A stretch of 56,004 bases of DNA from assembly GCA_023384575.1 (NCBI GenBank), contig JAHDVP010000006.1, positions 110,011-166,014 on the forward strand, in the 5' to 3' direction. Below, piece by piece: positions 22,977-40,154 of the stretch (positions are counted from its first letter, which is position 1; each line of letters opens with the position of its first letter). Source of the DNA: Acidobacteriota bacterium (lineage in GTDB: Bacteria; Acidobacteriota; Vicinamibacteria; Vicinamibacterales; JAFNAJ01). The notes beneath the pieces are model-generated. The model saw only the letters and a list, made by a program, of their open reading frames with translations. It did not search any database and had not been told where the DNA came from. A program made the position numbers and the translations under genes.

Positions 22977-23953
22977 AGGCCATGGCCCGTCCGCTACGCC
23001 ATCTCGCGCAGGGCTGCGTGGAATCGCGCACCTCTCGAGCGACCGCACTCGTCGTGGCGGCGCTCGTGACGCTGGCCGTGACCGGCCCCGCGCTCGCCCA
23101 GGTGCAGCCGAAATACCTCTACACGCTGGCGAACTTCGAGGGGCGGTTGCCGTACGACTGGGCCAGGATTCACGTGGACCAGGAGCGGGACGAGACCTAC
23201 GTCATATATCAGAATCTGATCCGGATCTTCGGTCCGAGCGGCATGGAGGTGTTCAGCTTCGGCGACGATCTCGACCTCGGGCGGATCGTCGACGCCGTGG
23301 TCGACGGCCAGGGCGACATCATTCTGCTCTCCCACGTTGACGGCCGCCCCCTCGTGACCCGATGCGACTTCCGCGGCGTTCCCATCGGCCCGGTCGACAT
23401 CGTTGGCCTGCCGGCGGAAGTCCCGTTCGAGCCGAACCGGGTCGTGCATCGCAACGGCCTGCTCTACTTCGTGTCGGGCGGCCTGCGCGTCGTTGTGACA
23501 GACTCGTCCGGCGGGGTCCGCGAGCACATCGATCTGTTGCCCCTCCTCGAACTCGACGAGAAGCAGCGCAGCGACGTGGAGCTGATCGGGTTTGCCGTGG
23601 ACGCTGACGGGAACATCTGGTTCACCGTCCCGGTGCACTTCAAGGTCTACAGACTTGCTGCCGACCGCGCGTTGACATCGTTCGGCCGCGCGGGGGCCGC
23701 ACCCGGCCGGTTCGGCATCGTGGCCGGGGTCGTGACCGACAGCCGGGGCCACGTGCTCGTCGCCGACAAGCTGCGCTGCGTGATTCTCGTCTTCGACAGG
23801 GACTTGAACTTCCTCACCGAGTTCGGCTATCGCGGATCCCAGCCGGAGAACCTCATCGTCCCGGACGACCTGGCCATCGACACCCAGGACCGGGTCTACG
23901 TGACGCAAGGCCGTCGCCGTGGTGTGAGCGTCTTCGCCCTCGCGGGGGGCTGA
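22973..23953 (+). CDS. Exported NHL-repeat beta-propeller protein
   Basis: A protein of 326 residues with a signal peptide ending in GPALAQ. The body has NHL/SBBP-type propeller blades: LGRIVDAVVDGQGDIILLSH, GRFGIVAGVVTDSRGHVLVA and DDLAIDTQDRVYVTQGR. No catalytic residues are recognisable. NHL proteins are scaffolds or ligand binders and recur beside multihaem cytochromes in metal-reducing bacteria. The start overlaps the pseudo-receiver stop (ATGA). A related NHL protein ends the locus at 39246-40154. Confidence 0.8.
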   Translation: MKAMARPLRHLAQGCVESRTSRATALVVAALVTLAVTGPALAQVQPKYLYTLANFEGRLPYDWARIHVDQERDETYVIYQNLIRIFGPSGMEVFSFGDDLDLGRIVDAVVDGQGDIILLSHVDGRPLVTRCDFRGVPIGPVDIVGLPAEVPFEPNRVVHRNGLLYFVSGGLRVVVTDSSGGVREHIDLLPLLELDEKQRSDVELIGFAVDADGNIWFTVPVHFKVYRLAADRALTSFGRAGAAPGRFGIVAGVVTDSRGHVLVADKLRCVILVFDRDLNFLTEFGYRGSQPENLIVPDDLAIDTQDRVYVTQGRRRGVSVFALAGG

Positions 23954-24111: not shown

Positions 24112-24127
24112 TGGCCTTCGTGTTGCA
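24112..24127 (+). promoter_or_regulatory. Sigma-54 promoter of the OmcS-like cytochrome
   Basis: TGGCCTTCGTGTTGCA: GG and GC are exactly 10 nt apart, and the -12 part TTGCA is perfect. It predicts a transcript starting near 24138 with a leader of about 280 nt that includes the riboswitch at 24306-24386. Confidence 0.6.
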
Positions 24128-24420: not shown

Positions 24421-25659
24421 ATGAAAACACTGCGCGTAAGTGTCGCCCTCTTCGGGGCAGCACTGCTGGTGCTGGCGTACTCCGGGACGCCAGAGGCCTT
24501 CCACTCGGGCGGCGTCGCCGAATGCGGCGGCTGCCACTCGATGCACAGTCCCGCGCCCGCCGGCACCTTCCTGCTCGTCAAGAACGACGCGTCGAGCACC
24601 TGCCTCAACTGTCACGAGGGAAGCGCCGGCAGCTACCGTGTCTCGACGGCCCCGGGGAGTCTCGGCGCCGGCCAGGCACCGATCCAACGGGGGCCGGGCG
24701 GTGACTTCGGCTGGCTGAAGAAGGACTACACCTTCACCATCCGCGGCACCACGTCCACGGAGTTCGGCTACACCCACGGCCACAACATCGTCGCGGCCGA
24801 CTACGGGTATCTCGCCGACCCGGTCAAGACCACGTCGCCGGGCGGCGATTTCACGTCGGCAAACCTCAGCTGCGTGACCTGCCACGACCCGCACGGGCAG
24901 TACCGGCGTCTGTTCAGCGGGAACGTGAGCACGACCGGCGGCCCCATCAAGGGCTCCGGTTCCTTCCCCGGCGGTGAACCAGACGCCAATAACGCCGTCG
25001 GCGTGTATCATCTCCTCGCCGGCGCCGGCTACAGCCGCGCCCCGTTCCCCGGCGTGCCCGCGGCCAAGGCGCCGAGCACGTACAACCGGAGCGAGGCGTC
25101 GACGCAGACCCGCGTGGCGTACGGCCGGGCCACGACTACGGGCCACACGACGTGGGGGAACTGGTGCGGCACGTGCCACACCGACATGCACTCGAGCGGC
25201 AGCTACGTCCACCCGGTGGATCAGAACCTCAGTTCGGCGACGAGGCTCAACTACGAGCGTTACGTCAAGACCGGCGACATGACGGGATCTGCGGCGACCT
25301 CGTTCACCTCGCTCGTGCCCTTCGTGACCAACTCGGGCGACTACGCGGGGGTTCTGTCAACTCTCGCCGTCAACAACAACTCCCAGCTCGGCGGACCTGC
25401 GGGGAGCGATCAGGTGACCTGCCTCTCGTGCCACCGCTCCCACGCCTCCGGTTTTAGGAACGCGCTGCGCTGGAACGGAGACAGCGACTTCCTGACCTAC
25501 AGCGGGAACTACCCGGGCACCGACACGACCCCAACGTTGCCGCAGTACGCACTCGGCCGGACCAGCGCCGAGACGCAGGCGGCTTACTACGACCGCCCGC
25601 CGAGCACCTTCGCGAGCTACCAGCGCTCGCTCTGCAACAAGTGTCACGCGAAAGACTGA
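24421..25659 (+). CDS. omcS: OmcS-like hexahaem nanowire cytochrome
   Basis: An exported protein of 412 residues with a signal peptide cleaved before FHSGG. Six haem c motifs: CGGCH (35), CLNCH (61), CVTCH (151), CGTCH (249), CLSCH (334), CNKCH (405). It is collinear with Geobacter sulfurreducens OmcS as I recall it: FHSGGVAEC at the mature start, GGDFGW, GHNIVA, CHDPHG, APSTYNR, TQTRVAYG, SCHRSHASGF and an identical CNKCHAKD end. OmcS polymerises into filaments that carry electrons outside the cell; there His16 of the mature chain ligates a haem of the next subunit, and the equivalent His42 is present here (CHSMH). Controlled by the leader riboswitch and probably sigma-54; followed by a strong terminator. 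Confidence 0.93.
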   Translation: MKTLRVSVALFGAALLVLAYSGTPEAFHSGGVAECGGCHSMHSPAPAGTFLLVKNDASSTCLNCHEGSAGSYRVSTAPGSLGAGQAPIQRGPGGDFGWLKKDYTFTIRGTTSTEFGYTHGHNIVAADYGYLADPVKTTSPGGDFTSANLSCVTCHDPHGQYRRLFSGNVSTTGGPIKGSGSFPGGEPDANNAVGVYHLLAGAGYSRAPFPGVPAAKAPSTYNRSEASTQTRVAYGRATTTGHTTWGNWCGTCHTDMHSSGSYVHPVDQNLSSATRLNYERYVKTGDMTGSAATSFTSLVPFVTNSGDYAGVLSTLAVNNNSQLGGPAGSDQVTCLSCHRSHASGFRNALRWNGDSDFLTYSGNYPGTDTTPTLPQYALGRTSAETQAAYYDRPPSTFASYQRSLCNKCHAKD

Positions 25660-25692: not shown

Positions 25693-25718
25693 GGGGCCGG
25701 CTCGCGCCGGCCCCTTTT
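25693..25718 (+). terminator. Rho-independent terminator after omcS-like gene
   Basis: GGGGCCGGC, loop TCGC, GCCGGCCCC, then TTTT: a perfect 9-bp stem with T-tract, 33 nt after the stop codon. Confidence 0.9.
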
Positions 25719-25742
25719 GTCAGAGGCGCCATCACCTGGCGC

Positions 25743-25800: not shown

Positions 25801-27210
25801 ATGGAGCGTCGACTTTCCCTCCTGCTGGTTGTCCTCCTGCTCGGCGCGCCCAACGCGGCCGACAGCGGGCGGGTCTCCGGCGCGCAGCCGGCAGGTGAGG
25901 GAGAGGTCTACATCTACTTGCAGCCGCTGCCCTTCGAGGCAGAGGCCGTGACGTTCTCCATCGGCACGATGTCGGCGGCAGACGGCCAGGGCGCCGAGCG
26001 TCGCCTCGAGGTGGCGTTGACGACCGTCGCGCACCCCGAGGCGCGACGGCAGCGACTGCTCGGATCGGGCCGCCTGCCTGAGGGGCAGTACACGGGGTTG
26101 ACGATCGCGGTGAGAAACGCCTCGTTGCGGCGCGACGGCGCCGAGGCCGCCCTGCTCGTGCCCGACGAGCCAGTACGAGTGGACGTGCCCTTTCTCGTGA
26201 TCCGGGGGCGGGCCGTCGTGCTGTGGCTCGAGTTTCGCTCTGCCGACTCGCTCGCCCCGGGCACCGTGGACTTCACGCCGGTCTTCACCGCCTATCAAGC
26301 GCCGCGACCGATGCTGAGCCTGGCCGGGTTCGTGTCCAGCTCGACATCGAACGCCGTCACCGTGTTCGACAAGAAGCGTCGGCAGGTGGCGGCCGTCGTG
26401 CCGACGGGGAGCCGCCCCGCCGGGATGGCGCTCGATCAGCGCGCGGGCCGGCTGTACGTGGCGTGTCCCGACGAGGACGAGATCCTGGCAATCGACGTGG
26501 CCTCGACGGAAATCGTCGAGCGGACGCGCCTCTTCCCCGGCGACGGGCCGCGCGAGATCGCGCTCACCCCCGACGGCCGGACGCTCGTGTCGGTCAACCC
26601 CGGGTCGAACAGCGTCAGCGTCTTCGACGCGTCGCCGCTCACCCGGCTCGACCGGGTCGGCGTCGACGATGGTCCGGGCGCGCTGGCCATCGACCCGGCC
26701 GGTCAACGCGCGTTCGTGTTCAACGCCCTCTCGGGTTCGGTGTCGGTCGTCGACCTCGCGCAACGCAGGGTCGTCACGACCATCTCGATGGACTCCGCGC
26801 CGCTCAGGGGGCAGTTCAGCGCGCGTGGCGACCGGCTCTTCGTGATCCACGAGCGGTCTCCCTATCTCACCGTCGTCGATCCGGCGGGCCTGACCGTCGT
26901 CAGGCGCGAACGGCTGCGCACGAGTGGGAGCGCCATCAAGGTCGACACCAGGCGGGGCTGGATTTCCATCGGCAGTCCCGGCAGCACGACGGTCGAGTTC
27001 TACGAACCCAGCACGCTGCTGCCCCTCGATGCGATGACGGTCGAGGGAGGGGTGGCCCACATGACCATCGATGCCGAGGACAACAGCATGTTCCTCGTGA
27101 GCCCGGCGACGGGGCGCCTGCTTGTCGCCAGCGTCGCCGACAGGAGGGTGGCCACCGCGATCGACGTGGGCAAGGGGCCCTCCTGGGTGGTGGTCATGGG
27201 AGAGAAGTAG
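25801..27210 (+). CDS. Exported YVTN-type beta-propeller protein
   Basis: A protein of 469 residues with a signal peptide. Residues about 35-165 are an Ig-like region (EGEVYIYLQPLPFEAEAVTF, ending in PGTVDFTPVFTAY), and residues about 180-469 are a seven-bladed YVTN propeller (VAAVVPTGSRPAGMALDQRA, IALTPDGRTLVSVNPGSNS, VSVVDLAQRRVVTTI). No haem motif or catalytic residue is seen. It is first in a nine-gene operon; the next gene starts immediately after its stop. A surface scaffold or filament-anchoring role is possible (inference). Confidence 0.8.
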   Translation: MERRLSLLLVVLLLGAPNAADSGRVSGAQPAGEGEVYIYLQPLPFEAEAVTFSIGTMSAADGQGAERRLEVALTTVAHPEARRQRLLGSGRLPEGQYTGLTIAVRNASLRRDGAEAALLVPDEPVRVDVPFLVIRGRAVVLWLEFRSADSLAPGTVDFTPVFTAYQAPRPMLSLAGFVSSSTSNAVTVFDKKRRQVAAVVPTGSRPAGMALDQRAGRLYVACPDEDEILAIDVASTEIVERTRLFPGDGPREIALTPDGRTLVSVNPGSNSVSVFDASPLTRLDRVGVDDGPGALAIDPAGQRAFVFNALSGSVSVVDLAQRRVVTTISMDSAPLRGQFSARGDRLFVIHERSPYLTVVDPAGLTVVRRERLRTSGSAIKVDTRRGWISIGSPGSTTVEFYEPSTLLPLDAMTVEGGVAHMTIDAEDNSMFLVSPATGRLLVASVADRRVATAIDVGKGPSWVVVMGEK

Positions 27211-29415
27211 GTGGGACGAGGCGCGACGGCGCGCCGCGTGGTGCTGACCGGGGTGTTGACCCTGGCTCCCGCGGGCGTGTCGGCGCAACAGGGCCTCGCC
27301 GAGGGCTTCAGGGCGGTCCTGGACACCAACGTCAGCGTCATCACGACCACGGTCACCACCGACGCCAGCACGGTCACGACGACGACGCGCACCCTGTTTC
27401 CGCGGCTCACGGTGGACACGCACGCTCTGGTGCTGCCCGCGTTGAGGCTGAATGCGGGGGGCACGTTCGAGGTCAACCGGTCGTTCATCGACAACGACCT
27501 CCTCTTCGCCGGGGCTGGCGGCGGCACGACGTCGTCGATTACGCAGCTGCGCCCGTTCTTCGAACTGCGGTCGACCAATCGCGTGCTCTCTCCTGGATTC
27601 GGGTACTACCGGCGGGAGATTCGCACCAGCGTTGGCCGCCTGCCGAGCCTGAAGCTCGTGAGCGAGGACGTCGCCGGCTACCTGGGGTGGAAGCCGGAGG
27701 GGCTGCCGGAGTCCGACGTCCAGTTCGTGCGCACGACGACGTTCGACGGTGGGCGGGTGTTCCAGGACACCACGAAGGACTTCGGGTCGATCATCTCGCG
27801 CTACGCCTACAAGAACCTGAACCTCTACTACCGTGGGGCGTATCTCGACACGACCGAGCGGGTGAACCAGCTCGACACGCGCCAGTGGTCGAACGCGGCC
27901 AGGACCGACTACGCGGGGGACTTCCTGAAAGATCGGCTCCGCTGGAACGTGACCTACAACGTGAGCCGCCAGGACCTGACGACCGTCGCTCGCGGCGAGG
28001 GGGGCGAGGTTCCGCTGCCCGTGAACGCGTTCGCCGGGCTGTCGGCCCTCAGCGACACGCCCGTCACGACGACGCTCAGTCCGAACCCTCCGCTCATCGA
28101 CGGCAACCTGACGGCGAGCGCCGGCCTCAACCTCGGCGTGACCGGTGCGGGCGCCGACGCGCAGGCCAGGAACATGGGCCTCGACTTCCTGAGCCCGACC
28201 GAAGTCAACCGGATCCTCGTCTGGGTCGACCGCGAGCTCCCGGCCAGCATCGCCGCCACGTTCTCGTGGGAGGTCTACACCAGCGTCGACAACCTGGTGT
28301 GGACGCGGGAGACGCTGGTCTCGACGGCGCCCTTCGGGCCGTTCGAGAGCCGTTTCCAGGTCGATTTTCCGTCCGTCACCGCGCGCTACCTCAAGCTGGT
28401 GACCCGACCGCTCTCGGGCGCCGTGCTCGACGCGTCCCGGTACCCGGAGATCTTCGTCACGGAGTTGCAGGCGTTCCTCACGCGGTCGCCGGGCGAGGTG
28501 CCGACCGAGTTGACCCGGACGAATCAGATCTTCAGCACGGACGTCCGGCTGCGGCTGCTCGAGAAGCCGTCGCTCTACTACGAGGGAAACTACTGGTACA
28601 ACGGGTTCGACGCGCCGGTGCCCGACCGGGACACCCTGTCGAACGGCTTGTCGGTGAACCACCGGTTCAATCGCGTGATGGCGGCCTACGCGCGGGGCGC
28701 GTACGAACAGGGCCGGGAGCTCGAGGGGCGCCGGACCGCCACGGTGACGAACGCAACGCTGACGCTCGACCCGATTCCCACGCTGACGAGCTCGGTGCTC
28801 TTCTCGGGCGTGGACGAGACGATTGGCGACCGGCTGAACGACCGGAAGGGTTTCCTGGTCCAGACCGCGGCACAGGTGTACCGCGGCGTCGACGTGCAGT
28901 TCGGCTTCGGCTGGAATTTCACGACGAGGGAGGGCGACGAGCACCTGCGCGATCGGCTCCTCAACCTCAATGCCAGCATCGTCCCGCGGCAGAACCTGAC
29001 GCTGACGCTGAACTACATCGACACGACGACGACGCGGTCGGGCACGTTCACCGGCGACCCGCGCTACCACGCCCGCCGGGGGTTCCTCACGCTCGCCTTC
29101 GACCCGATTCGGACGCTCCACCTCGTCGTGTCGGAGGAAATCGTGGCCATCACCGGCGAGAAGACCCGGACCACGCACAACGTCGGCGCCAACTGGACGC
29201 CGTTCCCCGACGGCGCGTTGCAGCTGACCGTGGCGTACAACGAGAACGTGCGGCCGCTCGCGTACGGCACCGACCGGGTGTTCAGACCAGGCGTGCGCTG
29301 GACCTTCTCGCGGCAGTCGTACGTCGACGTCTCGTACCAGGTGCTGGAGACCGAGTTCGTGGGACTGAAGACCGAGTCGAAGATCTTCGGCGTGGACCTG
29401 AAAGTGTTCTTCTGA
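27211..29415 (+). CDS. Large outer-membrane beta-barrel with discoidin-like domain
   Basis: A protein of 734 residues with an export signal (cleavage near VSAQQ). Long runs of alternating strands and a terminal aromatic residue (GVDLKVFF) indicate an outer-membrane barrel of porin type. An F5/8C-like domain is inserted at about residues 300-425: NMGLDFLSPTEVNRILVWVD, SWEVYTSVDNLVWTRE and ARYLKLVTRP are typical of that fold. The GTG start directly abuts the upstream stop, so translation is coupled. In porin-cytochrome conduits a barrel sheathes a multihaem cytochrome; this is a candidate for that part or for the filament exit channel (inference). Confidence 0.82.
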   Translation: MGRGATARRVVLTGVLTLAPAGVSAQQGLAEGFRAVLDTNVSVITTTVTTDASTVTTTTRTLFPRLTVDTHALVLPALRLNAGGTFEVNRSFIDNDLLFAGAGGGTTSSITQLRPFFELRSTNRVLSPGFGYYRREIRTSVGRLPSLKLVSEDVAGYLGWKPEGLPESDVQFVRTTTFDGGRVFQDTTKDFGSIISRYAYKNLNLYYRGAYLDTTERVNQLDTRQWSNAARTDYAGDFLKDRLRWNVTYNVSRQDLTTVARGEGGEVPLPVNAFAGLSALSDTPVTTTLSPNPPLIDGNLTASAGLNLGVTGAGADAQARNMGLDFLSPTEVNRILVWVDRELPASIAATFSWEVYTSVDNLVWTRETLVSTAPFGPFESRFQVDFPSVTARYLKLVTRPLSGAVLDASRYPEIFVTELQAFLTRSPGEVPTELTRTNQIFSTDVRLRLLEKPSLYYEGNYWYNGFDAPVPDRDTLSNGLSVNHRFNRVMAAYARGAYEQGRELEGRRTATVTNATLTLDPIPTLTSSVLFSGVDETIGDRLNDRKGFLVQTAAQVYRGVDVQFGFGWNFTTREGDEHLRDRLLNLNASIVPRQNLTLTLNYIDTTTTRSGTFTGDPRYHARRGFLTLAFDPIRTLHLVVSEEIVAITGEKTRTTHNVGANWTPFPDGALQLTVAYNENVRPLAYGTDRVFRPGVRWTFSRQSYVDVSYQVLETEFVGLKTESKIFGVDLKVFF

Positions 29416-29433
29416 CCCCTTGAGAGGCGATCC

Positions 29434-30021
29434 ATGAAGACAGCGCCCTGGCCCGTCACCTTCGCCACGTTCCTCCTGGCGCTCACGGCCTGTCCCGTCT
29501 CGGCACAGGTGACCGACGTCTTCCGGGACCCGCGAATGGACTTCGGCATCATCAAGACGGTGGCCGTGATGCCGTTTGCGAACCTGACGCGGGACCAGGT
29601 CGTCGCCGAGCGGGTGCGTGACGTCTTCATCAACAAGCTCCTGTCGAGTGAGGCCGTGTACGTGCTGCCGGTCGGCGAGGTGGCGCGCGGCATCACGCGG
29701 GTCGAGATCCAGAGTCCCACCGAGCCGACGGCGGAGGAGGTCGTCAAGCTCGGCGCCTTCCTCGGCGCCGAAGCCGTCATCACGGGCGTCGTCCGGGAAT
29801 ACGGCGAGGTCCGGTCGGGGGCGACCTCGGCCAACGTCATCTCGATGAGCATCCAGTTGGTCGAGGCGCAGACGGGCCGGATCGTCTGGAGCGGGTCGTC
29901 GACCAAGGGGGGCATCACGTTCATGAACCGCCTGTTCGGCGGCGGGGGGCAGCCGCTGAACGTGGTGACCGAGCAGGCCATCGACGCCCTCTTCGACAAG
30001 CTGCTCGGCCCGCCCGAGTAG
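29434..30021 (+). CDS. CsgG/TolB-N-like exported protein, possible lipoprotein
   Basis: A protein of 195 residues. The signal sequence contains LTAC, which fits a lipobox (lipid anchor at that Cys), although cleavage after VSAQ is an alternative. The mature part begins with the CsgG/LpoB-type core: IIKTVAVMPFANLTRDQVVAER, then VGEVARGITRV, KLGAFLGAEAVITGVVREYG, and VEAQTGRIVWSGSSTKGG. CsgG proteins form outer-membrane secretion pores for curli; related short lipoproteins act in envelope assembly. The gene lies 18 nt after the barrel gene. A role in exporting or docking the nanowire cytochrome is inferred from position. Confidence 0.8.
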   Translation: MKTAPWPVTFATFLLALTACPVSAQVTDVFRDPRMDFGIIKTVAVMPFANLTRDQVVAERVRDVFINKLLSSEAVYVLPVGEVARGITRVEIQSPTEPTAEEVVKLGAFLGAEAVITGVVREYGEVRSGATSANVISMSIQLVEAQTGRIVWSGSSTKGGITFMNRLFGGGGQPLNVVTEQAIDALFDKLLGPPE

Positions 30022-30030
30022 GAGCGCCAG

Positions 30031-33000
30031 ATGGGTGCGATGACGCCCCCGGTCTTCTTCGGCCTGATCTACCTGCTGTTCTTCCTGTCGGGCGCGGCCG
30101 CGCTCGTCTACCAGGTGGTGTGGGTCCGGTCGCTGACGCTGATCTTCGGCGGCTCGCACCTCGCCGTGACCGCGGTCCTGTCCATCTTCATGGCCGGCCT
30201 GGCGATTGGCGGGTACGTGCTCGGGCGTCGCGTCGATCGAGTCGAGAAGCCGCTTCGCCTTTACGGCTACCTCGAGTTCGGGATCGCGGCGGGCGCTCTG
30301 GCCTTCGCCGCGCTGATGACGGTCTATCCGTCCCTTTACGTGGCGCTCGCGCGCGGGCGAGACGAGGCGACGTTCTATCTCTCGGCCGTGCGCATGCTGT
30401 TCGCCGTTGTCGCGCTGATCGTGCCGACGATCCTGATGGGCGGCACGCTGCCGGTCGTCTCGCGCTTCGTCTCACGCCAGCCGGAGCAGCTGCGCAGTCA
30501 CCTCTCGTTCCTCTACGGGTTCAACACCCTCGGCGCGGTGCTCGGTGCACTGCTCGCCGGGTTCGTCTTCCTCCGGGTCTACTCGGTCAGCACGACGCTC
30601 TACATCGCCGTCGTCACCAACGTGATCATCGGGGTCCTCAGCCTCGTGCTGCAGGAGAAGGCGGCCGCGATCTCCGCCCCGGGCCTTGCCGACGCAGAGC
30701 CCGCCGCGGCCCGGGCAGGATCGCCACCCCGTGGAGACGAGGGGCGGGAAGCGCCGCGCCGGCGCTCGCTCGAGCTGGTGCTCTGGGGCATCGGGATCAG
30801 CGGCTTCTGCGCGCTGGGCTACGAGGTGCTCTGGACGCGGGTCCTCACGATCGCCATCGGCGCCAGCGTCTACGGCTTCACGATCATCCTCGTCGCCTTC
30901 CTGACCGGCATCGCGCTCGGCAGCGCCTCGTACGGTGCGTTCGTCAAGGTGTTCAGAATCGGGCTCCCGTCGACGCGCACGCTCGTGCTCTGGTTCGGGC
31001 TCACGCAGGTGGTCATCGGCGCGACCGCCCTGCTCGTCACGGTGTACCTCCGCGACATCCCGGCCAACTCCATCAGGGTGCTGAACTACTTCGTCGAAAC
31101 GGGACTGGCATCGTTCGGCGCGCGCGCCTGGGCCCACTTCGCGCTCGCCTTCCTGTACATGGTCGTCCCGGCGTTCTTCATGGGCGTGGCGTTCCCGATC
31201 GCGGGCGAGGCCCTCGCACGGCATCGAAGGGCGGTGGGCCGGGCCGTCGGAGAGGTGCTCGCGTACAACACCGTCGGTGCCATTCTGGGCGCCGGCGTCA
31301 GCGGCCTCGTGCTGATGCACCTCGTCGGCATCGAGCGGTCGCTGCAGGTCCTGACCGTGGTCAACATCGGCCTGGGGCTGGCGGTGGTGGCCAGCCTGCT
31401 GCGGCCGACATGGGCGCCGGCCGCCGTCGGGGCCGCCAGTCTCGCCGTCGTCGCCTTCCTGGCGCTCGCCCCCGACGTCGCGCGTGTCTGGGATCGGAAC
31501 TACTTCGCCATCTTCCGGAGCAACCAGCCCGAGGCCTTTCGCACGCCGGAGATGGTGCGCGAGGCCGTCGAGAACACCGACGTCCTGTACTACGCCGAGG
31601 GGGTCGAGTCGATCGTGAGCGTGATCCGGGTCAAGGGCGGCGAGAAGGCCTTCCTGACGAACGGACGCGTCGAGGCGTCGTCGCACCTGCAGGCCCAGCA
31701 GGTGCAGTACACGCTCGGTCACCTCCCGATGCTCCTGCACCCCGGGCCGAAGGACGTCCTCGTGGTCGGGATGGGCAGCGGGATGACGGCTGGCGCGACC
31801 GCGGTGCACCCGAGCGTCGAGCGCGTCACCATCGTGGAGATCGAGAAGGCGGTGTTCGGCGTGGCGCGGGCGTTCGAGGAGTTCAACCACGGGGTGCTCG
31901 ATCACCCGAAGGTCCGCGTCGTCGTGAACGACGGGCGGAACTTCCTGCTGACCACCGACAGGACGTTCGACGTCATCACGGCAGACCCGATCCACCCGTG
32001 GTTTCGCGGCGCCGGGTACCTCTACTCGAGCGAGTACTTCAGGCTGGCGGCGACGCGCCTGCGTCCCGGCGGCGTCATCGCGCAGTGGCTGCCCATCTAC
32101 GAGCTGACGCCGAAAGACCTCGAGTCGGTCGTCAGGACCTTCCGGGAGCACTTCGCCTACACGCTGATGTGGCTCACCCACTACGACGCGGAGATCGTCG
32201 GCAGCAACTCGCCCTTCGTCATCGACGAGGCGGAACTCGACCGGCGAATCGCCGAGCCGGACGTCGCCAGCAGCCTGCGACGCGTGATGATGGGCTCGGC
32301 CACCGACCTCCTGAGCTATTTCGTCATGGGCACCGAGGGCATGAAGCGCTTCGGGTGGAACGGCATCCTGAACACCGACGACTACCTCTATCTCGAGTTC
32401 TCGGCGCCGTTCTCGATTGCGACCTCGGCCGTGATGGCTGCCAACGTCGAGGCGATCGCCGCCCAGCGCGAGAGCCTCCTGCCCTACCTGAGACCCGCAC
32501 CGGACGAGGCGGCGCGCGAGGCGCAGCGCGATCGGTGGAACCGCCAGCTCGCGGCCGGCCGGCTGAACGACCCGGCGCTCGCCCTGTTCCTCGGCGGCCG
32601 AAGGGGCGACCCGCGGTTCACGCAGCTGCTCGGTCGGCTCGATGTCGAGCACCCCTCGTTCGCTCCCGCGAGGTTCCTGAGCAACGAGTACCAGCTCGCG
32701 GTTGCCCTCGAGCCCAGACTCCTCCAGCAGGCCACCTTCACGTTCGTGAACGAGAACGGCATCACGACGGCCGTCGAACTGTCGGCCGTCCTCGTGCCGG
32801 TGAGCCGCACCCGGGCCTCGGTGATGTTCGTCGACAACCAGGCGCGGGTGGTGCACGGGCAGGTGTACCTCGACGACTACGACCGCGACGACCTGGCCAG
32901 CCGCTTCGCCAGCGACGTCATGGGGGCCGTCCACGTCGCGTACCAGAAGGACGCGATCGCCGCGTTCGAGGGCGGGCAGGCCCTGCCGCCTGCTGACCAG

Positions 33001-33063
33001 ACCTTGCGAAGGATCCGGGCCGTCATCGCGTCGAAGACACAGGGCGTACAGCAGGCCTCGTAG
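30031..33063 (+). CDS. Membrane-bound spermidine synthase-like protein
   Basis: A protein of 1010 residues. Two groups of transmembrane helices (about 5-215 and 245-490) precede a cytoplasmic spermidine-synthase-like Rossmann domain (about 530-780) with DVLVVGMGSGMTAG for the nucleoside site and VVNDGRNFLLTTDRTFDVI after it. A C-terminal region of about 200 residues has no assignment. The fused transporter/spermidine-synthase family is widespread in environmental bacteria, and its reaction is mostly unproven. GGAG precedes the ATG at 30031; a second ATG lies three codons later. Its place inside a cytochrome operon is unexpected. Confidence 0.85.
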   Translation: MGAMTPPVFFGLIYLLFFLSGAAALVYQVVWVRSLTLIFGGSHLAVTAVLSIFMAGLAIGGYVLGRRVDRVEKPLRLYGYLEFGIAAGALAFAALMTVYPSLYVALARGRDEATFYLSAVRMLFAVVALIVPTILMGGTLPVVSRFVSRQPEQLRSHLSFLYGFNTLGAVLGALLAGFVFLRVYSVSTTLYIAVVTNVIIGVLSLVLQEKAAAISAPGLADAEPAAARAGSPPRGDEGREAPRRRSLELVLWGIGISGFCALGYEVLWTRVLTIAIGASVYGFTIILVAFLTGIALGSASYGAFVKVFRIGLPSTRTLVLWFGLTQVVIGATALLVTVYLRDIPANSIRVLNYFVETGLASFGARAWAHFALAFLYMVVPAFFMGVAFPIAGEALARHRRAVGRAVGEVLAYNTVGAILGAGVSGLVLMHLVGIERSLQVLTVVNIGLGLAVVASLLRPTWAPAAVGAASLAVVAFLALAPDVARVWDRNYFAIFRSNQPEAFRTPEMVREAVENTDVLYYAEGVESIVSVIRVKGGEKAFLTNGRVEASSHLQAQQVQYTLGHLPMLLHPGPKDVLVVGMGSGMTAGATAVHPSVERVTIVEIEKAVFGVARAFEEFNHGVLDHPKVRVVVNDGRNFLLTTDRTFDVITADPIHPWFRGAGYLYSSEYFRLAATRLRPGGVIAQWLPIYELTPKDLESVVRTFREHFAYTLMWLTHYDAEIVGSNSPFVIDEAELDRRIAEPDVASSLRRVMMGSATDLLSYFVMGTEGMKRFGWNGILNTDDYLYLEFSAPFSIATSAVMAANVEAIAAQRESLLPYLRPAPDEAAREAQRDRWNRQLAAGRLNDPALALFLGGRRGDPRFTQLLGRLDVEHPSFAPARFLSNEYQLAVALEPRLLQQATFTFVNENGITTAVELSAVLVPVSRTRASVMFVDNQARVVHGQVYLDDYDRDDLASRFASDVMGAVHVAYQKDAIAAFEGGQALPPADQTLRRIRAVIASKTQGVQQAS

Positions 33064-33089
33064 CGGCCGCCCACTCTGGAGGACTCCAG

Positions 33090-34190
33090 GTGCCAGGACT
33101 CCCGCGCTCGCTCGTCATCGCTGCTGCGTTCGTCGTGGCCTCGGCCGCGGTCGGCGCCGGCCAGGCGTGGACGAGCGAGCGGATCCCGACCCTCGCGGTG
33201 TTCCCCGTGGAGAACCTGAGTGGCCGCGGCATCCCCGCCGACGAGATCCGGCAGGTCATGGTCGAGCGGCTGGTCTCGCAGGGCGTCACCGTGCTCTCCG
33301 ACGAGGCGCTCGACGATTTCATGAAGCGCCACCGCGTCCGGTACGCCGCGGGCGTCGACGCCGCCACGGCGGCCTCGCTTCGGGAGGAGACGGGCGTCGG
33401 AGGCGTCGTGATTGCCTCGGTGGGTCTGTCGAGCGACACCGCGCCCCCCAAGATCTCGCTCACGGTCAGGCTGATCTCGACCGGCGATGTCCCCGTTGTC
33501 GTCTGGGCCGACGACGCCGGCCTGTCTGGAGACGACGCCCCGGGCCTGCTGGACCTTGGCCTGGTCGACGACTACGCGGTCCTGCTCGCGCGGGCCCTGG
33601 ACGGCCTCGCGGACTCGTTGCTCGCGTACCTGACGACGGGGCAGGCGAAGGCGGGCCCGAGGCCGGCCTCGAAGTTCAGGCCGAAGGTCGTGTACCGGAA
33701 TCTCGCGCTCGAGTCGGGCCGGACGTATTCCGTGGCCGTGCTGCCGTTCTTCAACCTGAGTGGCCGCCGGAACGCCGGCGAGCTGCTCGCGGGGCTCTTC
33801 ATGCGGCACCTCTCGGCGTTCGACGGGTTCCGCGTGGTCGACACCGGCGAGGTGAGGCAGCAACTGCTCGAGGCCCGGGTCATCATGGACGGCGGCATCT
33901 CACTGAGCGATGCCGAGCGCGTGGCGACCGTGCTCGACGCCGACTTCGTCCTCGCGGGCCGGGTCCTCGCCTACCAGGACTACGACGGCCCGGAGGGCCA
34001 GACGCGGGCCGATTTCTCGACGATCCTGATCGAACGCCAGAGCGGCCGGGTGGTATGGAGTTCGCATAGTTACAACGATGGCCAGGATGGGGTGCGCTTC
34101 TTCGGCCGCGGCCGGTCCGCGACCGCCCACCGGATGGCGACCCAGATGGTCGGCCTCGCCACCGCCATGATCGTGAACGGCCGGGAATAG
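33090..34190 (+). CDS. Exported protein with two tandem CsgG/TolB-N-like domains
   Basis: A protein of 366 residues with a signal peptide (cleavage near GAGQA). Two similar halves are visible: PTLAVFPVENLSGRGIPADE at about residue 33 and YSVAVLPFFNLSGRRNAGEL at about residue 213, each followed by DEAL/TGEV-type segments and a GVGGVVIAS or DADFVLAGRV strand. This is a tandem duplication of the fold also present in the protein encoded at 29434. GTG start at 33090 with GGAGGA upstream. Likely periplasmic or outer-membrane associated; partner of the smaller CsgG-like protein in an export or assembly apparatus (inference). Confidence 0.78.
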   Translation: MPGLPRSLVIAAAFVVASAAVGAGQAWTSERIPTLAVFPVENLSGRGIPADEIRQVMVERLVSQGVTVLSDEALDDFMKRHRVRYAAGVDAATAASLREETGVGGVVIASVGLSSDTAPPKISLTVRLISTGDVPVVVWADDAGLSGDDAPGLLDLGLVDDYAVLLARALDGLADSLLAYLTTGQAKAGPRPASKFRPKVVYRNLALESGRTYSVAVLPFFNLSGRRNAGELLAGLFMRHLSAFDGFRVVDTGEVRQQLLEARVIMDGGISLSDAERVATVLDADFVLAGRVLAYQDYDGPEGQTRADFSTILIERQSGRVVWSSHSYNDGQDGVRFFGRGRSATAHRMATQMVGLATAMIVNGRE

Positions 34191-34230
34191 GCGAAACACG
34201 CGGCCCCGCAGGCCGCTTCTCAGGAACGGC

Positions 34231-35889
34231 ATGACACCACGTCTCCTCGTCGCGACCGCGCTCTGTCTCGTCTCGATTCCCGCGCAGGTCCTGCTGGATG
34301 CCCAGAAACCGGTGCTTCCCGAGCGTGAAGGCCGGCCGGTCGTCGCCATCGTCAACGACGACTGGATCTCGCTCGACGAGCTCGTCGCCGAGCTGTCCCC
34401 GTCGGTCGACACGAAACGCCTGCTCGAAGGCCGCGCCACGGTGCCAGAATTCGAGACGCTCGAGCGCCTGATCACCGTGAGGCTCATCGTCCAGGAGGCC
34501 GCCACGATGGGCCTCGCCGATCTGCCGGAAATCCGGAAGCAGGTCGACGTGGCGTCGCGCCAGATCCTGCGCGACGTGCTGATGGAGCGGGCCGTCAAGG
34601 GTGTCACGCCCGACGAGGCGGCCATCGAAGCGCTGGCCAGGGACATGGTCAGGGAGTGGAAGACGTCTTCGCTGCTGTTCGCCGAGGAGGAGCCGGCCCG
34701 GAGGCTGCGGGACGAGGTCGCCAGGGGGGCGGCCTACGAGGAGGTCGCCGCGCGGGCAGTGGCGGACGGGAAGGCGAGGGCCGAGGGCGACCCGGGCTAC
34801 CACCGGCGCAAGGACTATCTGCCGCCGATTGCCGAGGCCGTCGCCAAACTCGACGTGGGGCAGGTCAGTCCGGTCATTCGCCTCGAGGCCGGGTTCGTCG
34901 TGGTGAAGGTGCTCGATATCCGTTACCCCGACGTCGCGGCGGCGCGGCCCGAGGCGCGGAAGACGGTCGTGACCCGCCAGCAGGCCGCGGCCTTCAAGGC
35001 CTACGAAGACGCCCTGCGGGCCCAGTACGTCGTCGTTCACGAGGACCTGCTCGAGAGCCTCGACTACGAGGCCGAGAAGCCCGGCTTCGCGGCCCTGCTC
35101 GAGGACCGACGGGTCATCGCCGAGATCAAGGGGGCGAGTCCCGTCACCGTCGGCGACCTGACCGACTACCTGCGCCTGCAGTTCTTCCACGGCGCCGACC
35201 GGCCGGGCCAGGGCGCGCGGCTGAACTCCCGCAAGCGTCTCGCGTTCGACGCGACGCTCGGGCGCCGGCTGCTGAACCGCGAAGCGCTCCGGCTCGGCCT
35301 CGACCGGACGCACGCGTACGTGGACCGGGTCAACGCCTTCGAAGACGGGCTGGTGTTCGATGCCTTCGTGCAGCGGGTGATCGCCCCCACGAGCAAGCTG
35401 AGGGAAGAAGAGATCAAGGCCCACTACGACGCGTTCGTCGGTGAGTACGCCTTTCCCCGCATGCTGAAGGTCCGCAGCCTGGCGTTCACCAGCCGGGCGG
35501 CGGCCGAGGACGCGACGGAGAAGCTGCGCGCGGGAACGGACTTCGGCTGGCTGGCGACCACCGCGCGGGGGCAGGTCGACAGGGCGGCGCCTGGACTGCT
35601 CTCGTTCGACGGGCGGCTGATCACGATCGGCAGCGTGCCGGAAGGCGTGCGGAAGACGCTCGGAGAGGCTCAGGCCGGTGAGGTCCGGTTGTACGCGAGT
35701 CCGGAAGGGCACTTCTATGCTCTTGCGGTGCAAGAGGTCGTCGAGCCGACCCCACGGCCGTACGACGAAGTGAAAGGGACCATCGCACAGAAGCTGTACG
35801 GCGAGAGGGTCCAGAAGGGCGTCGAGGAACACGCCGGCAAGCTGCGCGCCCTGTCCAAGGTCGAGGTCTACCTGAAGAAGGTGCGGTGA
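34231..35889 (+). CDS. Exported parvulin-type peptidyl-prolyl isomerase, SurA/PrsA-like
   Basis: A periplasmic chaperone of 552 residues with a signal peptide. The N-terminal SurA_N-like segment is VVAIVNDDWISLDELVAEL and EFETLERLITVRLIVQEA. Two parvulin-like regions follow: about 145-240 (YEEVAARAVADGKARAEGD, LPPIAEAVAKLDVGQVSPVI) and about 405-515 (RMLKVRSLAFTSRAAAEDA, APGLLSFDGRLITIGSVPEG). Such isomerases fold outer-membrane proteins and secreted substrates, and are regularly encoded beside extracellular cytochromes of metal reducers. It ends 44 nt before the 26-haem cytochrome gene. Probable client: the barrel or the cytochromes of this operon. Confidence 0.88.
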   Translation: MTPRLLVATALCLVSIPAQVLLDAQKPVLPEREGRPVVAIVNDDWISLDELVAELSPSVDTKRLLEGRATVPEFETLERLITVRLIVQEAATMGLADLPEIRKQVDVASRQILRDVLMERAVKGVTPDEAAIEALARDMVREWKTSSLLFAEEEPARRLRDEVARGAAYEEVAARAVADGKARAEGDPGYHRRKDYLPPIAEAVAKLDVGQVSPVIRLEAGFVVVKVLDIRYPDVAAARPEARKTVVTRQQAAAFKAYEDALRAQYVVVHEDLLESLDYEAEKPGFAALLEDRRVIAEIKGASPVTVGDLTDYLRLQFFHGADRPGQGARLNSRKRLAFDATLGRRLLNREALRLGLDRTHAYVDRVNAFEDGLVFDAFVQRVIAPTSKLREEEIKAHYDAFVGEYAFPRMLKVRSLAFTSRAAAEDATEKLRAGTDFGWLATTARGQVDRAAPGLLSFDGRLITIGSVPEGVRKTLGEAQAGEVRLYASPEGHFYALAVQEVVEPTPRPYDEVKGTIAQKLYGERVQKGVEEHAGKLRALSKVEVYLKKVR

Positions 35890-35933
35890 CGCGTCGGGTC
35901 GACCCGGCCCGGTTCGCGTCGGAGGATGGACCG

Positions 35934-37952
35934 ATGTCGTCGCGCAGGCCTGCCATCAGGGCGCTGGCGTGGATCACGGTGATCCTGGTCATCGTGAGCT
36001 TCGAGCTGTCACAAGGCCAGGAGCGCCGGAGGCGCACGCTCGGGGGGGGAGCGCCCAGCGCGAAGCAGGGGCTCGGGAGCCAGGATTGCCTCGCGTGCCA
36101 CAAGGCGTTCGCGGACAAGTACCTCGGCATGAAGACGGTCCATCCCACGGTGAAGCAGGGCCAGTGCGACCAGTGCCACCTGCGCCACGGCCTGGTCACG
36201 AAGCTGGTGCTGAAGAGGGAGGGGAACGAGCTCTGCTACACCTGCCACGCCAGGGACACGATCGGCCTCGACAAGTCTCACGTGCACACGGCGGTCCGGA
36301 GCGGGAGCTGCACGAGCTGCCACAACCCGCACGCCTCCCAGGCGAACCATCTCCTGAAGGCGGAAGGCGGCGAGGCCTGCTACCAGTGCCACCAGCGCGC
36401 CGACTACGAGAAGCCCGTCGTGCACGAGGTGCTGCGGACGGCGGGGTGCTCGACGTGCCATGCCTCGCACGGGGCCGACCAGCCTGGCCTGCTCGTGGCC
36501 GAGGAGAAGGCCCTCTGTCTCGGGTGCCACGCCAGCGACACGGCGGCGTTCAAGACGGCGCACGGCAGCTATCCGATCGAGACGGCATCGTGCGTGGGCT
36601 GTCACACCCCGCACAGCTCGACCGAGGCCAAGCTGCTGAAGGGCAGCGTGCACGCGCCGGTCGCGGGGGGGCAGTGCGACACCTGCCACGCCGCGCCGAC
36701 CTCGGAGCAGCCCTTCGAGGTGACGCAGCCGACAGGCGAGCTGTGCGGCACGTGCCACGACGCCGCCGGCATGGCGGGCACGGGCAAGGTGCAGCACCTG
36801 CCGTTCAAGGAAGGCGAGTGTCTCACCTGTCACAATCCTCACGCCTCCGAGCATCCGACGCTGCTCAATAGCCGGGGCAACGTGCTCTGCGTGACGTGCC
36901 ATCAGGATAGGGGCGAGCCCGTTCCGTTCGCGCACCAGCCCGTTGCCGACGAGAGGGGCTGCCTCTCCTGCCACGGCGCCCATTCGGCCGAGCACGCCGG
37001 GTTGTTGACGGCCGGCACCGACACCCTCTGCGCGACCTGTCACGCTGCCACGCAGGAGGCGGCGCAGAAGGCGACGGTGCCGCACGCGCCGGCCGCCATG
37101 ACCGATTGCACGGCCTGCCACGACGCGCACGGATCGAACGTCAAAGGCATCCTCAAGGCCAGGGCGGATCGTGTCTGTTACGAGTGCCACACCGACGTGC
37201 AGTCGCGCTTCGTCAAGACGTACACGCACCAGCCGGTGCGCGACGGCGCGTGCGCGTCGTGCCACGAGGCCCACGGCTCCGAGCAGGCCAAGCTGCTCAA
37301 GGCCACCGACTCCGCGCTCTGCGAGTCGTGTCACGCCGCGATGATGAAGCCCCTCGACGGCGGGGCCAGGCACGGGCCCTTCGACGCCGGCATGTGCCTG
37401 AGCTGCCACGATGCCCACGCGAGCAATACCCAGGGCATGACCACGGAGCCCTCCGGCACGTTGTGCGCCGGGTGCCACGCCGACGTCAAGGACGCGCTCG
37501 ACACGTCGAGGGCGAAGCACCACCCGGCGGCGAGCGGCGAGTGCACGAAGTGCCACAACCCGCACCAGACCCCCCTCGAGCGCCTGCTGCTCGCGAGGAG
37601 CCCCGATCTCTGCCTGGGCTGCCACCAGGACATCAAGGCGAGCCTGGACAAGCCCCACGTGCACTCGCCGGCCGCCAGCGACTGCCTCGGCTGCCATGCG
37701 CCGCACGCGTCCGCGGAGCTGCGGCTGATGCTGCAGCCCGTGCGCGCCGTGTGCGCCGACTGCCACGACGTGCAGACGCCGGCCTTCAGCACCGCGCACC
37801 TCGAGATCGATCCCGCCCGCATCCGGTGCGAACGCTGCCACGACGCGCACGGATCGGACGATGCGAAGCTGTTCAAGGAGAACGCCCACGCGCCCTTCGC
37901 CCTGAAGTCCTGCCTCGATTGCCACATCGCGCCACAGGGCGCGCCGAGGTGA
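35934..37952 (+). CDS. 26-haem c-type cytochrome
   Basis: An exported protein of 672 residues. I count 26 CxxCH motifs, from CLACH soon after the signal segment to CLDCH near the C-terminus, spaced in repeating doublets of about 45 residues of the doubled-CxxCH type (for example CTSCHNPHASQANHLLKAEG then CYQCH). Many motifs are followed by NPHAS, DAHGS or APHAS, which supply second haem ligands. The signal anchor is ALAWITVILVIVSFELSQG, perhaps uncleaved. ATG at 35934 follows GGAGGATGG. Such rods bridge periplasm and cell surface; here it probably feeds electrons towards the OmcS-like filament (inference). Confidence 0.93.
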   Translation: MSSRRPAIRALAWITVILVIVSFELSQGQERRRRTLGGGAPSAKQGLGSQDCLACHKAFADKYLGMKTVHPTVKQGQCDQCHLRHGLVTKLVLKREGNELCYTCHARDTIGLDKSHVHTAVRSGSCTSCHNPHASQANHLLKAEGGEACYQCHQRADYEKPVVHEVLRTAGCSTCHASHGADQPGLLVAEEKALCLGCHASDTAAFKTAHGSYPIETASCVGCHTPHSSTEAKLLKGSVHAPVAGGQCDTCHAAPTSEQPFEVTQPTGELCGTCHDAAGMAGTGKVQHLPFKEGECLTCHNPHASEHPTLLNSRGNVLCVTCHQDRGEPVPFAHQPVADERGCLSCHGAHSAEHAGLLTAGTDTLCATCHAATQEAAQKATVPHAPAAMTDCTACHDAHGSNVKGILKARADRVCYECHTDVQSRFVKTYTHQPVRDGACASCHEAHGSEQAKLLKATDSALCESCHAAMMKPLDGGARHGPFDAGMCLSCHDAHASNTQGMTTEPSGTLCAGCHADVKDALDTSRAKHHPAASGECTKCHNPHQTPLERLLLARSPDLCLGCHQDIKASLDKPHVHSPAASDCLGCHAPHASAELRLMLQPVRAVCADCHDVQTPAFSTAHLEIDPARIRCERCHDAHGSDDAKLFKENAHAPFALKSCLDCHIAPQGAPR

Positions 37953-37963
37953 GGGAGAACGTC

Positions 37964-39241
37964 ATGCACGCGCGCACGAAGGTGTCGTTGCTCGTCGCCC
38001 TCGCCGTTGCCATCGGCGGGCACTCGCTGGCTCGCAGCCAGCAGGATCAGAACCCGTACCGGCTGAAGGAGCCCAACCAGCAGAAGCTCTGCCTCGACTG
38101 CCACGCCGACTTCGAACAGACGCTGCAGAAGCGCTTCGTGCACACCGCCGTCAAGGACGGGCAGTGCTCGAGCTGCCACAATCCGCACGTCGCGTCGCAT
38201 GGCAAGCTGCTGTCGGCCGAGGCCGGGCAGATGTGCGAGTCGTGTCACGGCAGCGTCGTGCCCGGCAACGCCATGAGCGCCCACAAGATCGTGGCCGATG
38301 GGCAGTGCTCGACGTGCCACGATCCCCATGCCTCGGACAATCCCGGCATCCTGCTCGCGAGGGGCAACGACCTCTGTCTGGGCTGTCATGCCGATCTGGG
38401 GAAAGCGGTCGCGGAGGCCAGGTTCAAGCACCATCCCGTCGAACAGGGCTGCACGACCTGTCACAGTCCGCACGCGTCGGAGCAATCCGTCGGTCTGTTG
38501 AAGAGCGCCGTGCCGGCGCTCTGTGTGAGCTGCCACAAGCCCGATACCGCGACCTTCGCGGCGCGGCACATGAAGTACCCCGTCGCCTCCGCGTCGTGCA
38601 CGTCGTGCCACGATCCCCACGGGTCGAGCCAGTCGGCGCTCATGCTCGACAACGTCCACGCTCCGGTTGCGACCCGCATGTGCGCCCAGTGCCACGAGCC
38701 GCCGGGGTCGCCGACGCCGTTTGCGACCAGGCGTGTCGGCTACGAGCTCTGCCAGGGGTGTCACGACGACATGGTGCGCACGACGCTGGCGCAGCCGCGC
38801 CTGCACTGGCCGGTGGTGGGCGCGGACGGCTGCGCGAGCTGCCACAATCCGCACGCGTCGAAGCAGGCCAATCTCCTCAAGACCGACACCGTGGCGCTCT
38901 GCCGCGAGTGCCATGCGGACACGTCGCGACGGATCGAGGGCACGGCCGTGAAGCACGCGCCGGTCGCCGACGGCATGTGCAGCGCCTGTCACTCGCCGCA
39001 CGGCGCAAGCGGCGTGTACCTGATGGACCAGCCCAACATCCAGCTCTGCGGGACGTGCCACGACTATCAGCTCCACTCGTCGCACCCGATTGGCGAGACG
39101 GCCATCGACCCGAGAAACGCTAACCTGCACGTCGACTGTCTGAGCTGCCACAACGGGCACGGCACCGACGCCAAGTACATGCTGCTCGCGCCGACCAACG
39201 TGGAGCTGTGCACCCCGTGCCACTCGAAGATCTCGAGGTGA
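37964..39241 (+). CDS. 16-haem c-type cytochrome
   Basis: An exported protein of 425 residues with a signal peptide (SLLVALAVAIGGHSLARS). I count 16 CxxCH motifs from CLDCH to CTPCH, again in doublets (CSSCHNPHVASHGKLLSAEA then CESCH). Sequence style is the same as the preceding 26-haem protein, so the two are probably products of duplication. It starts 11 nt after that gene, and the next NHL gene is 4 nt downstream. Likely periplasmic or membrane-associated electron carrier of the same route. Confidence 0.93.
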   Translation: MHARTKVSLLVALAVAIGGHSLARSQQDQNPYRLKEPNQQKLCLDCHADFEQTLQKRFVHTAVKDGQCSSCHNPHVASHGKLLSAEAGQMCESCHGSVVPGNAMSAHKIVADGQCSTCHDPHASDNPGILLARGNDLCLGCHADLGKAVAEARFKHHPVEQGCTTCHSPHASEQSVGLLKSAVPALCVSCHKPDTATFAARHMKYPVASASCTSCHDPHGSSQSALMLDNVHAPVATRMCAQCHEPPGSPTPFATRRVGYELCQGCHDDMVRTTLAQPRLHWPVVGADGCASCHNPHASKQANLLKTDTVALCRECHADTSRRIEGTAVKHAPVADGMCSACHSPHGASGVYLMDQPNIQLCGTCHDYQLHSSHPIGETAIDPRNANLHVDCLSCHNGHGTDAKYMLLAPTNVELCTPCHSKISR

Positions 39242-39245
39242 GTCG

Positions 39246-40154
39246 ATGAAGACGGTGCCGCTCGCCGCGCTGGTCGCGACCGCTCTCGTCCTCGGATACC
39301 CACAGGCGACCGCCGCGCAGGGCGCCAAGCTCAGATACCTGGCCGCGGTGTACGCCGACGACAAGGGCGTCGGCCTGCACCTGCCCGAAGGGGTCGCGTG
39401 CGACGACAAGGGCCAGGTCGTCGTCGCCGACACGGGAAACGACCGCCTGCTTCGTTTCGGGTTCCACGACCGGACGCTCACCGGCGGCGCCGAGATCAGG
39501 ATCGCGCAGCTTCAGTCGCCCACCAGGGTCCGGCTGAACTCGAAGGGTGAGATCTACGCCCTCGACGGCAAGGCGCGGCGCGTCGTCCACTTGAGTGCCG
39601 CAGGCGAGTTCAAGAGGGTGCTCTCGTTCGACGGGGCGCCGCCTCCTTCGACGATCGTGCCGAAGAGTGTCGACATCGGTCCCGCGGACGCGATCTACGT
39701 GCTCGACGTCTTCTCGGCGCGCGTCCTCGTCCTCGACGCCGAGGGGCGGTTCGAGCGGGCGCTCACCGCACCGGCCGAAGCGGGCTTCATCACCGATCTC
39801 GCGGTCGATGCCGTGGGCAACGTGCTGTTGCTCGACTCGATTCGCCGGCGGATCCACGTCGCGGCGGCAGATGCGACGTCGTTCTCCCCGCTCGGCGGCG
39901 ACTTCAAGGACTCGCTGGTCACACTGCCCGTCTCCCTCGCGACCCGGGCGGGCCTCATCCTGGTGGCCGAGGGCAGCGGCGGCGCCATCGCCACCATCGG
40001 GCAGGACGGCTCGTTCCTGGCCAGGCAGCTGACGAAGGGCTGGAGGGAGGGAGCGCTCAACCATCCCTCCCAGATGTGCATCAGCGGCCACGACGAGGCG
40101 TTCGTCGCCGACCGCGACAACAGCCGGGTGCAGGTCTTCTCGCTGAGCCGCTGA
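39246..40154 (+). CDS. Exported NHL-repeat protein
   Basis: A protein of 302 residues with a signal peptide (cleavage after ATAAQ). Five to six NHL blades: LPEGVACDDKGQVVVADTGN, LQSPTRVRLNSKGEIYALDG, PKSVDIGPADAIYVLDVFSA, ITDLAVDAVGNVLLLDSIRR, and NHPSQMCISGHDEAFVADRD. It closes the operon. No haem or catalytic motif is visible. Similar in plan to the NHL protein encoded at 22973; such propellers may organise the surface cytochromes, but there is no direct evidence. Confidence 0.85.
   Translation: MKTVPLAALVATALVLGYPQATAAQGAKLRYLAAVYADDKGVGLHLPEGVACDDKGQVVVADTGNDRLLRFGFHDRTLTGGAEIRIAQLQSPTRVRLNSKGEIYALDGKARRVVHLSAAGEFKRVLSFDGAPPPSTIVPKSVDIGPADAIYVLDVFSARVLVLDAEGRFERALTAPAEAGFITDLAVDAVGNVLLLDSIRRRIHVAAADATSFSPLGGDFKDSLVTLPVSLATRAGLILVAEGSGGAIATIGQDGSFLARQLTKGWREGALNHPSQMCISGHDEAFVADRDNSRVQVFSLSR

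Follow-up and report, generated by a model that had tools for sequence, protein, structure and literature searches.

Directly 3' of a homologue of omcS, the Acidobacteriota genome investigated here carries a gene cluster which is well supported as an osc-type machinery, that is, as a close relative of the published Geobacter system in a bacterium other than Geobacter. We consider it probable that this cluster is an operon by which an OmcS-family nanowire is matured, secreted and electrically connected. The window, i.e. the whole stretch of DNA that was analysed, is 56,004 nt long, and its features are compiled in Table 1. The idea of an operon for the export and assembly of OmcS is already published for Geobacter (Shen et al. 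2025, as cited in PMC12977616 and PMC13194489), and the sequence-only reading of the window, which had called the export of OmcS-type filaments unsettled, was outdated in this point. Our results suggest a variant of a known machinery, with a single nanowire gene, a putative PelC-like ring/barrel exporter and an extra gene, here called M.

In G. sulfurreducens, the osc (omcS companion) operon reaches from GSU2501 to GSU2493, according to these two papers, which refer to Shen et al. 2025. All Geobacter genomes in the set of PMC12977616 with the OmcS-like GSU2501 have the eight-gene block GSU2500–GSU2493, which that paper, referring to Shen et al. 2025, connects with the maturation and secretion of OmcS; the same paper gives 26 haems for GSU2495. 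As cited in PMC13194489, Shen et al. 2025 proposed a role in folding for OscH and in morphology for OscD, and suggested that OscE, OscF and OscG are needed for OmcS secretion; OscI (GSU2495) and OscJ (GSU2494) are listed in PMC13194489 as periplasmic cytochromes. The letters D to K were given to the window genes by their position relative to this block. Kinds and order of these genes agree with GSU2500–GSU2493 and with the Geobacteraceae loci, M being additional between F and G. Proteins of Geobacteraceae other than G. sulfurreducens can be aligned with proteins of the block. In Geobacter sp. L1geo and C. bremense R1, both belonging to the published set, the series D-E-F-G-H-26haem adjoins an OmcS-like gene.

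Table 1. Features of the osc-type locus and its upstream region, in window positions.
Feature	Position	Strand	Remarks
Sensor histidine kinase	19670..21130	+	relatives in 37/76 OmcS loci
NtrC-type (sigma-54) response regulator	21136..22521	+	relatives in 35/76 OmcS loci
NHL-repeat-like protein U	22982..23953	+	alternative starts 22946 or 22973; usually first gene 5' of omcS
Sigma-54-like site	24112..24127	+	310 nt 5' of omcS; 2 mismatches; chance level in window alone
omcS homologue S, hexahaem cytochrome, predicted nanowire subunit	24421..25659	+	51% identity to OmcS; 6 CxxCH
Terminator-like hairpin and T-run	25693..25722	+	9-bp stem, 4-nt loop; between omcS and osc genes
D, OscD-position YVTN/YncE beta-propeller, signal peptide	25801..27210	+	Pfam, synteny
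E, OscE-position outer-membrane beta-barrel, ~28 strands, discoidin-like insert	27211..29415	+	AlphaFold model
F, OscF-position PelC/GNA1162-like lipoprotein, lipobox LTAC	29434..30021	+	profiles, fold
M, extra gene: MFS-type membrane domain, spermidine-synthase-like domain, C-terminal region of ~200 aa; osc-linked	30031..33063	+	
G, OscG-position protein, tandem PelC/LpoB-like domains	33090..34190	+	Pfam, profile
H, OscH-position periplasmic parvulin, two PPIC domains	34231..35889	+	Pfam
I, OscI-position 26-haem cytochrome	35934..37952	+	CxxCH count; alternative GTG start 35886
J, OscJ-position 16-haem cytochrome	37964..39241	+	CxxCH count
K, NHL-repeat protein, end of block	39246..40154	+	Pfam

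The ORF calls and translations confirm nine same-strand genes between 25801 and 40154, as had been described in the sequence-only reading; the gaps of 0, 18, 9, 26, 40, 44, 11 and 4 nt keep within its range of 0–44 nt, and a high GC3 coding bias is found in all nine ORFs. Its assignments of a propeller, a parvulin and an NHL protein were also right, with Pfam identifying a YNCE/YVTN propeller in D, two parvulin domains in H and NHL repeats in K, and so were the 26- and 16-haem cytochromes, as judged by the number of CxxCH motifs in I and J. The N-termini of the block proteins resemble export signals except in M, which is polytopic. The start of D was set at 25801, since a reading frame opened at the earlier in-frame ATG (25690) would run across the hairpin preceding the gene. 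Farther upstream (18604–19449) lies a gene for a split-Soret cytochrome-like protein with two CxxCH motifs (NF047622, 201 bits, below the cut-off); since no homologue was found near osc in the other OmcS loci, it was excluded from the system. Proteins with 11, 10, 10, 10, 9 and 5 haems, some of them DmsE/MtrA-like, are encoded on four other contigs of the genome.

Conservation of gene order was studied by an OmcS-based scan of named genomes, which yielded 76 loci, 57 of them with at least 7.5 kb of downstream sequence. D-E-F come next on the same strand in 43 of these 57 informative loci, and the full series D-E-F-G-H in 37. The order S-D-E-F-G-H-26haem-16haem-NHL recurs in at least five phyla; carriers include Rokubacteria, Acidobacteriota, Nitrospirota, Myxococcota (Anaeromyxobacter), Geobacteraceae and other Thermodesulfobacteriota. 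Where the sequence extends far enough, the 26-haem gene usually follows, and then the 16-haem and NHL genes. Several Nitrospirota loci have H-I-J-K as a separate unit on the opposite strand while E stays with F and G, which suggests that the block may consist of two sub-modules.

Among 396 genomes of the window's phylum, a strong match to the barrel profile (>500 bits) was found in eight and a match to the OmcS profile in seven. Six genomes have both (Fisher 4e-11), and there the two genes are always adjacent and co-directional. In the two barrel-only genomes the contigs end at D, and in the one OmcS-only genome the contig is 3.1 kb long. Five weaker barrel matches were fetched with their surroundings, and all five are accompanied by F-, G- and H-like genes and by hexahaem or larger cytochromes. 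Homologues occurring mainly without omcS-like genes, named beforehand as a finding that would speak against the system, were not seen: strong barrels adjoin omcS or sit on contigs ending before it. This holds because the barrel-only contigs end at D and the five divergent barrels adjoin multihaem cytochromes. Two of the checks proposed in the sequence-only reading, the synteny comparison with OmcS-positive genomes and the co-occurrence statistics, came out in its favour. Chance adjacency of the nine genes was rejected on the basis of the order conserved in the 43 loci and of the co-occurrence in the 396 genomes. The five weaker matches represent a second, divergent type of osc-like cluster in this phylum, in which the hexahaem or larger cytochromes are distant ones and some clusters also have 26- and 16-haem cytochromes.

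The putative substrate of the machinery is encoded before the nine genes. A link to an OmcS-like filament had been suggested, and a homologue indeed exists, but its gene lies outside the interval to which the suggestion referred. The protein matches OmcS of G. sulfurreducens (PDB 6ef8; phmmer 1.7e-93) and is the single OmcS-family copy in the 5.9-Mb genome. Across 19 homologues including OmcS itself 12 histidines are invariant, six from the CxxCH motifs and six distal ones. Among the distal ones is the histidine just after haem motif 1, the intersubunit ligand in OmcS. A tree of 102 OmcS-family proteins, obtained by a quick search and rooted at the midpoint, places the window protein in a clade of 36 members (SH-aLRT 99) outside the sister groups of proven OmcS and of proteins at the OscC position, and hence outside the proven-OmcS clade under this rooting. 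Because of this separate clade and of the one hexahaem gene in the genome, the protein is probably best seen as a co-orthologue of OmcS and OscC and not as OmcS sensu stricto. In the same tree it does not cluster with four other Acidobacteriota OmcS, whereas D-H and M of the window are closest to one of those four loci (54–75% identity); the subunit gene may therefore have been replaced or exchanged. These similarities also point to an acidobacterium of Vicinamibacteria-like affinity as the organism. In Anaeromyxobacter soli, an ORF for a 49-haem cytochrome adjoins an OmcS-family gene.

The hairpin separating omcS from the block begins at 25693 and reads GGGGCCGGC-TCGC-GCCGGCCCC-TTTTGT. A terminator scan did not flag it, as its T-run falls short of the scan rule. 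Hairpins with a T-rich sequence within 100 nt after the omcS stop codon were present at 31 of 51 S-D and 14 of 22 S-S boundaries (45/73), compared with 5 of 231 for the other boundaries (U-S, D-E, E-F, F-G and G-H) and 3 of 255 for shuffled sequences. Across phyla, a histidine kinase and NtrC-type regulator pair accompanies about half of the 76 OmcS loci. When the region 5' of the U gene was scanned in 53 loci, 15 had a sigma-54 site with no more than one mismatch (0.5% in shuffles). The window itself has just one two-mismatch site of this kind before omcS, which is at chance level.

The two proteins F and G had been labelled CsgG-like, and here the label has to be replaced. Their CsgG scores in Pfam (14.7 and 18.6 bits) are both below the cut-off of 20.8, F belonging to LpoB/GNA1162 and G to LpoB. 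Profile searches of the PDB, based on 25 sequences of F and 18 of G, gave PelC and GNA1162 as matches (for F, 9h80 with E 3.1e-6 and GNA1162 4hrv with E 1.5e-6), and neither profile found a CsgG chain at E values up to 1. The model of F (195 aa, pLDDT 86) has PelC of Geobacter metallireducens (5t0z) as top match by both Foldseek and VIA (VIA Z 15.6, 2.7 A); PelBC (9h80) follows with Z 13.7, compared with a Z of about 11 at 4.6 A rmsd for CsgG. No membrane hairpins appear in this model. The cysteine at the end of the signal peptide is kept in most F proteins and fits a lipobox in the window version. By sequence profile as well as by fold, F thus belongs with the PelC family, and from these comparisons we regard F and G as PelC-like, not CsgG-like proteins.

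For E, no Pfam family scored above its cut-off, and the discoidin-like domain it had been credited with appears solely as a weak F5_F8_type_C_2 match; the barrel itself was confirmed by an AlphaFold model (pLDDT 85), in which the discoidin-like insert is preceded by 11 strands and followed by 17, giving about 28 in total. Outer-membrane barrels typically end in an aromatic residue, and such a residue stands at the C-terminal end of E. According to strand parity in the model, the discoidin domain would face outside. Searched against the PDB, the E profile found no barrel relative, just weak carbohydrate-binding matches to the insert. The first Foldseek match of the model was MtrB (6r2q_B, E 4e-8) with a TM-score of only 0.35; VIA returned generic barrels, many unrelated ones ranking above MtrB. 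The PelBC complex has twelve PelC lipoproteins, arranged as a ring on its PelB barrel (PMC12141448). PelC-like F and G next to a barrel of about 28 strands suggest, as the simplest reading by analogy, that F and E may form an export gate of the PelB/PelC type, with F in a ring.

M is a protein of 1010 aa; one half is an MFS-type membrane region, and the remainder comprises a domain resembling aminopropyltransferases and about 200 further residues at the C-terminus. Its claimed similarity to spermidine synthases was upheld by the Pfam spermine synthase family, next to a sub-threshold MFS match, and by the fused MFS/spermidine synthase family NF037959 (116.8 against a cut-off of 40); it does not belong to the common block, however, but is an extra component. 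A true spermidine synthase was considered and rejected: TIGR00417 gave 93 bits against 249.55, and although one catalytic Asp of spermidine synthase has its counterpart in D652, the second Asp is replaced by His655, which is invariant in seven homologues. Homologues scoring above 1000 bits are sharply set apart: the next best match has 634 bits, and the matches at this lower level stop near profile position 780–850. M occurs in 3 of 396 genomes of the window's phylum, all three with osc and with M beside it. In the phylum of a Nitrospirota MAG it occurs in 4 of 246 genomes, all four with an OmcS-family gene, which in one case is a fragmentary match at the end of a contig; three of the four also have the barrel, and in three of the four the contig ends or M is flanked by genes other than osc. 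Genomes with paralogues only had strong osc in 1 of 22 cases in the first sample and OmcS or the barrel in 0 of 6 in the second. Taking both phylum samples, M tracks osc/omcS in 7 of 7 genomes versus 1 of 28 (Fisher 1e-6), and in 5 of 5 without the two profile-building genomes (2.5e-5). It is present in 15 of 50 OmcS genomes, and in 14 of these 15 an osc or omcS-family gene lies no more than 1.5 kb away from it, with varying positions and strands; this figure is biased by genome choice. M is, then, an osc-linked extra component in several phyla outside the common block. Literature searches for a connection between spermidine-synthase-like genes and cytochrome nanowires brought no specific result. 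In the literature searched, where Shen et al. 2025 is represented by the papers citing it, we also found no description of M, of the post-omcS hairpin or of the sigma-54 and HK/NtrC pattern. Tentatively, we put forward a twofold idea: M could be an unrecognised component of nanowire biogenesis outside most Geobacter, an inner-membrane, MFS/aminopropyltransferase-like protein whose product or cargo is a small polycation, or which introduces a modification into the subunit, as a requirement for filament folding, export or bundling; and the operon could be the pre-duplication form, with a single hexahaem protein in the place of both OmcS and OscC.

Put together, these data would be consistent with the following course. 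If transcription mostly stops at the hairpin that follows omcS, OmcS would be made in excess. The periplasmic double parvulin H, judged by homology and by the OscH role cited in PMC13194489, would help the hexahaem subunit to fold. F and its tandem cousin G would form a periplasmic ring below the outer membrane and pass the subunit to the barrel E in the manner of PelB/PelC, with propeller D shaping the filament, as cited for OscD. The 26- and 16-haem cytochromes would carry electrons across the periplasm to the filament, and M would serve as an inner-membrane accessory, its linkage to the system in several phyla being observed.

The earlier claim of an export and assembly operon is thus partly supported, by synteny, co-occurrence and the osc operon as described in the citing papers, but not by its CsgG basis. 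The route of export is still something we infer, be it a barrel gate, a cytochrome conduit or a pilus-dependent path. MtrB sheathes MtrA and is a cytochrome sheath, not an exporter. By analogy, E could sheathe the 26- or the 16-haem cytochrome and wire electrons to an OmcS filament exported otherwise. This role stays a live rival, as MtrB heads the Foldseek list, if at a low TM-score and with generic barrels in VIA, and as the barrel, in loci with enough sequence, is usually found together with the 26- and 16-haem genes. We regard it as unlikely: the resemblance to MtrB is no closer than that to many unrelated barrels, the PelC-like F and G are expected for export, OscE/F/G were suggested to be necessary for secretion, and in several Nitrospirota loci the barrel keeps company with F and G while both cytochrome genes lie in the opposite-strand unit.

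Still less probable appears an export via a type IV pilus or a type II secretion-like system, with the osc proteins just folding, tethering or capping the filament. PilA-N was reported to be necessary for extracellular OmcS and OmcZ (PMC12307469), but the same review treats the export route as unsettled, and a dedicated barrel with PelC-like proteins, strictly omcS-linked in the 396 sampled genomes, would be left without explanation. That F and G form a pore by themselves, like curli secretion and as implied by the CsgG label, is hardly credible; their distant fold similarity and sub-threshold CsgG scores are outweighed by profiles which find PelC and no CsgG, and by an F model which lacks hairpins and fits PelC better. 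We therefore prefer the PelB/PelC-type gate.

The passage of folded multihaem cytochromes through the outer membrane, by which nanowires are formed, was still called speculative in a 2025 review (PMC12307469). The locus described here is a simple version of the system, with one subunit gene and one machinery, and from it a specific structural hypothesis can be drawn, namely a ring and a barrel like those of PelB/PelC. It also points to an additional gene that tracks the machinery across phyla, and its conserved hairpin could set the ratio of subunit to machine. Furthermore, it is relevant to whether the secretion cluster is older than OmcS, a point raised in PMC12977616.

Compared with known systems, the likeness to the curli channel CsgG is confined to a distant fold similarity of the soluble domain, in view of the transmembrane hairpins missing in the F model and of the profile searches. 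With MtrB of MtrCAB (6r2q) the window shares a large barrel beside multihaem cytochromes and the top Foldseek match; unlike MtrB, E has a low TM-score, no sequence match, and PelC-like proteins and a parvulin as partners. M differs from the members of NF037959 by His655 in place of the second catalytic Asp, the C-terminal extension and its linkage to osc. The PelB/PelC exopolysaccharide exporter (9h80, 5t0z) has in common with the window a PelC-fold lipoprotein, an outer-membrane barrel and the two-part logic of periplasmic ring and barrel, where the ring of the window is a prediction; the barrel of the window, however, is without detectable sequence relation to PelB, has about 28 strands and a discoidin insert, and its presumed substrate is a folded haem protein. 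Closest is the Geobacter osc system, with an OmcS-like gene followed by an eight-gene block of propeller, secretion proteins, foldase, 26-haem and second multihaem cytochrome; from this the window differs by its single hexahaem gene, which branches apart from both the OmcS and the OscC clade, by M between F and G, and by the hairpin that separates the subunit gene from the machinery.
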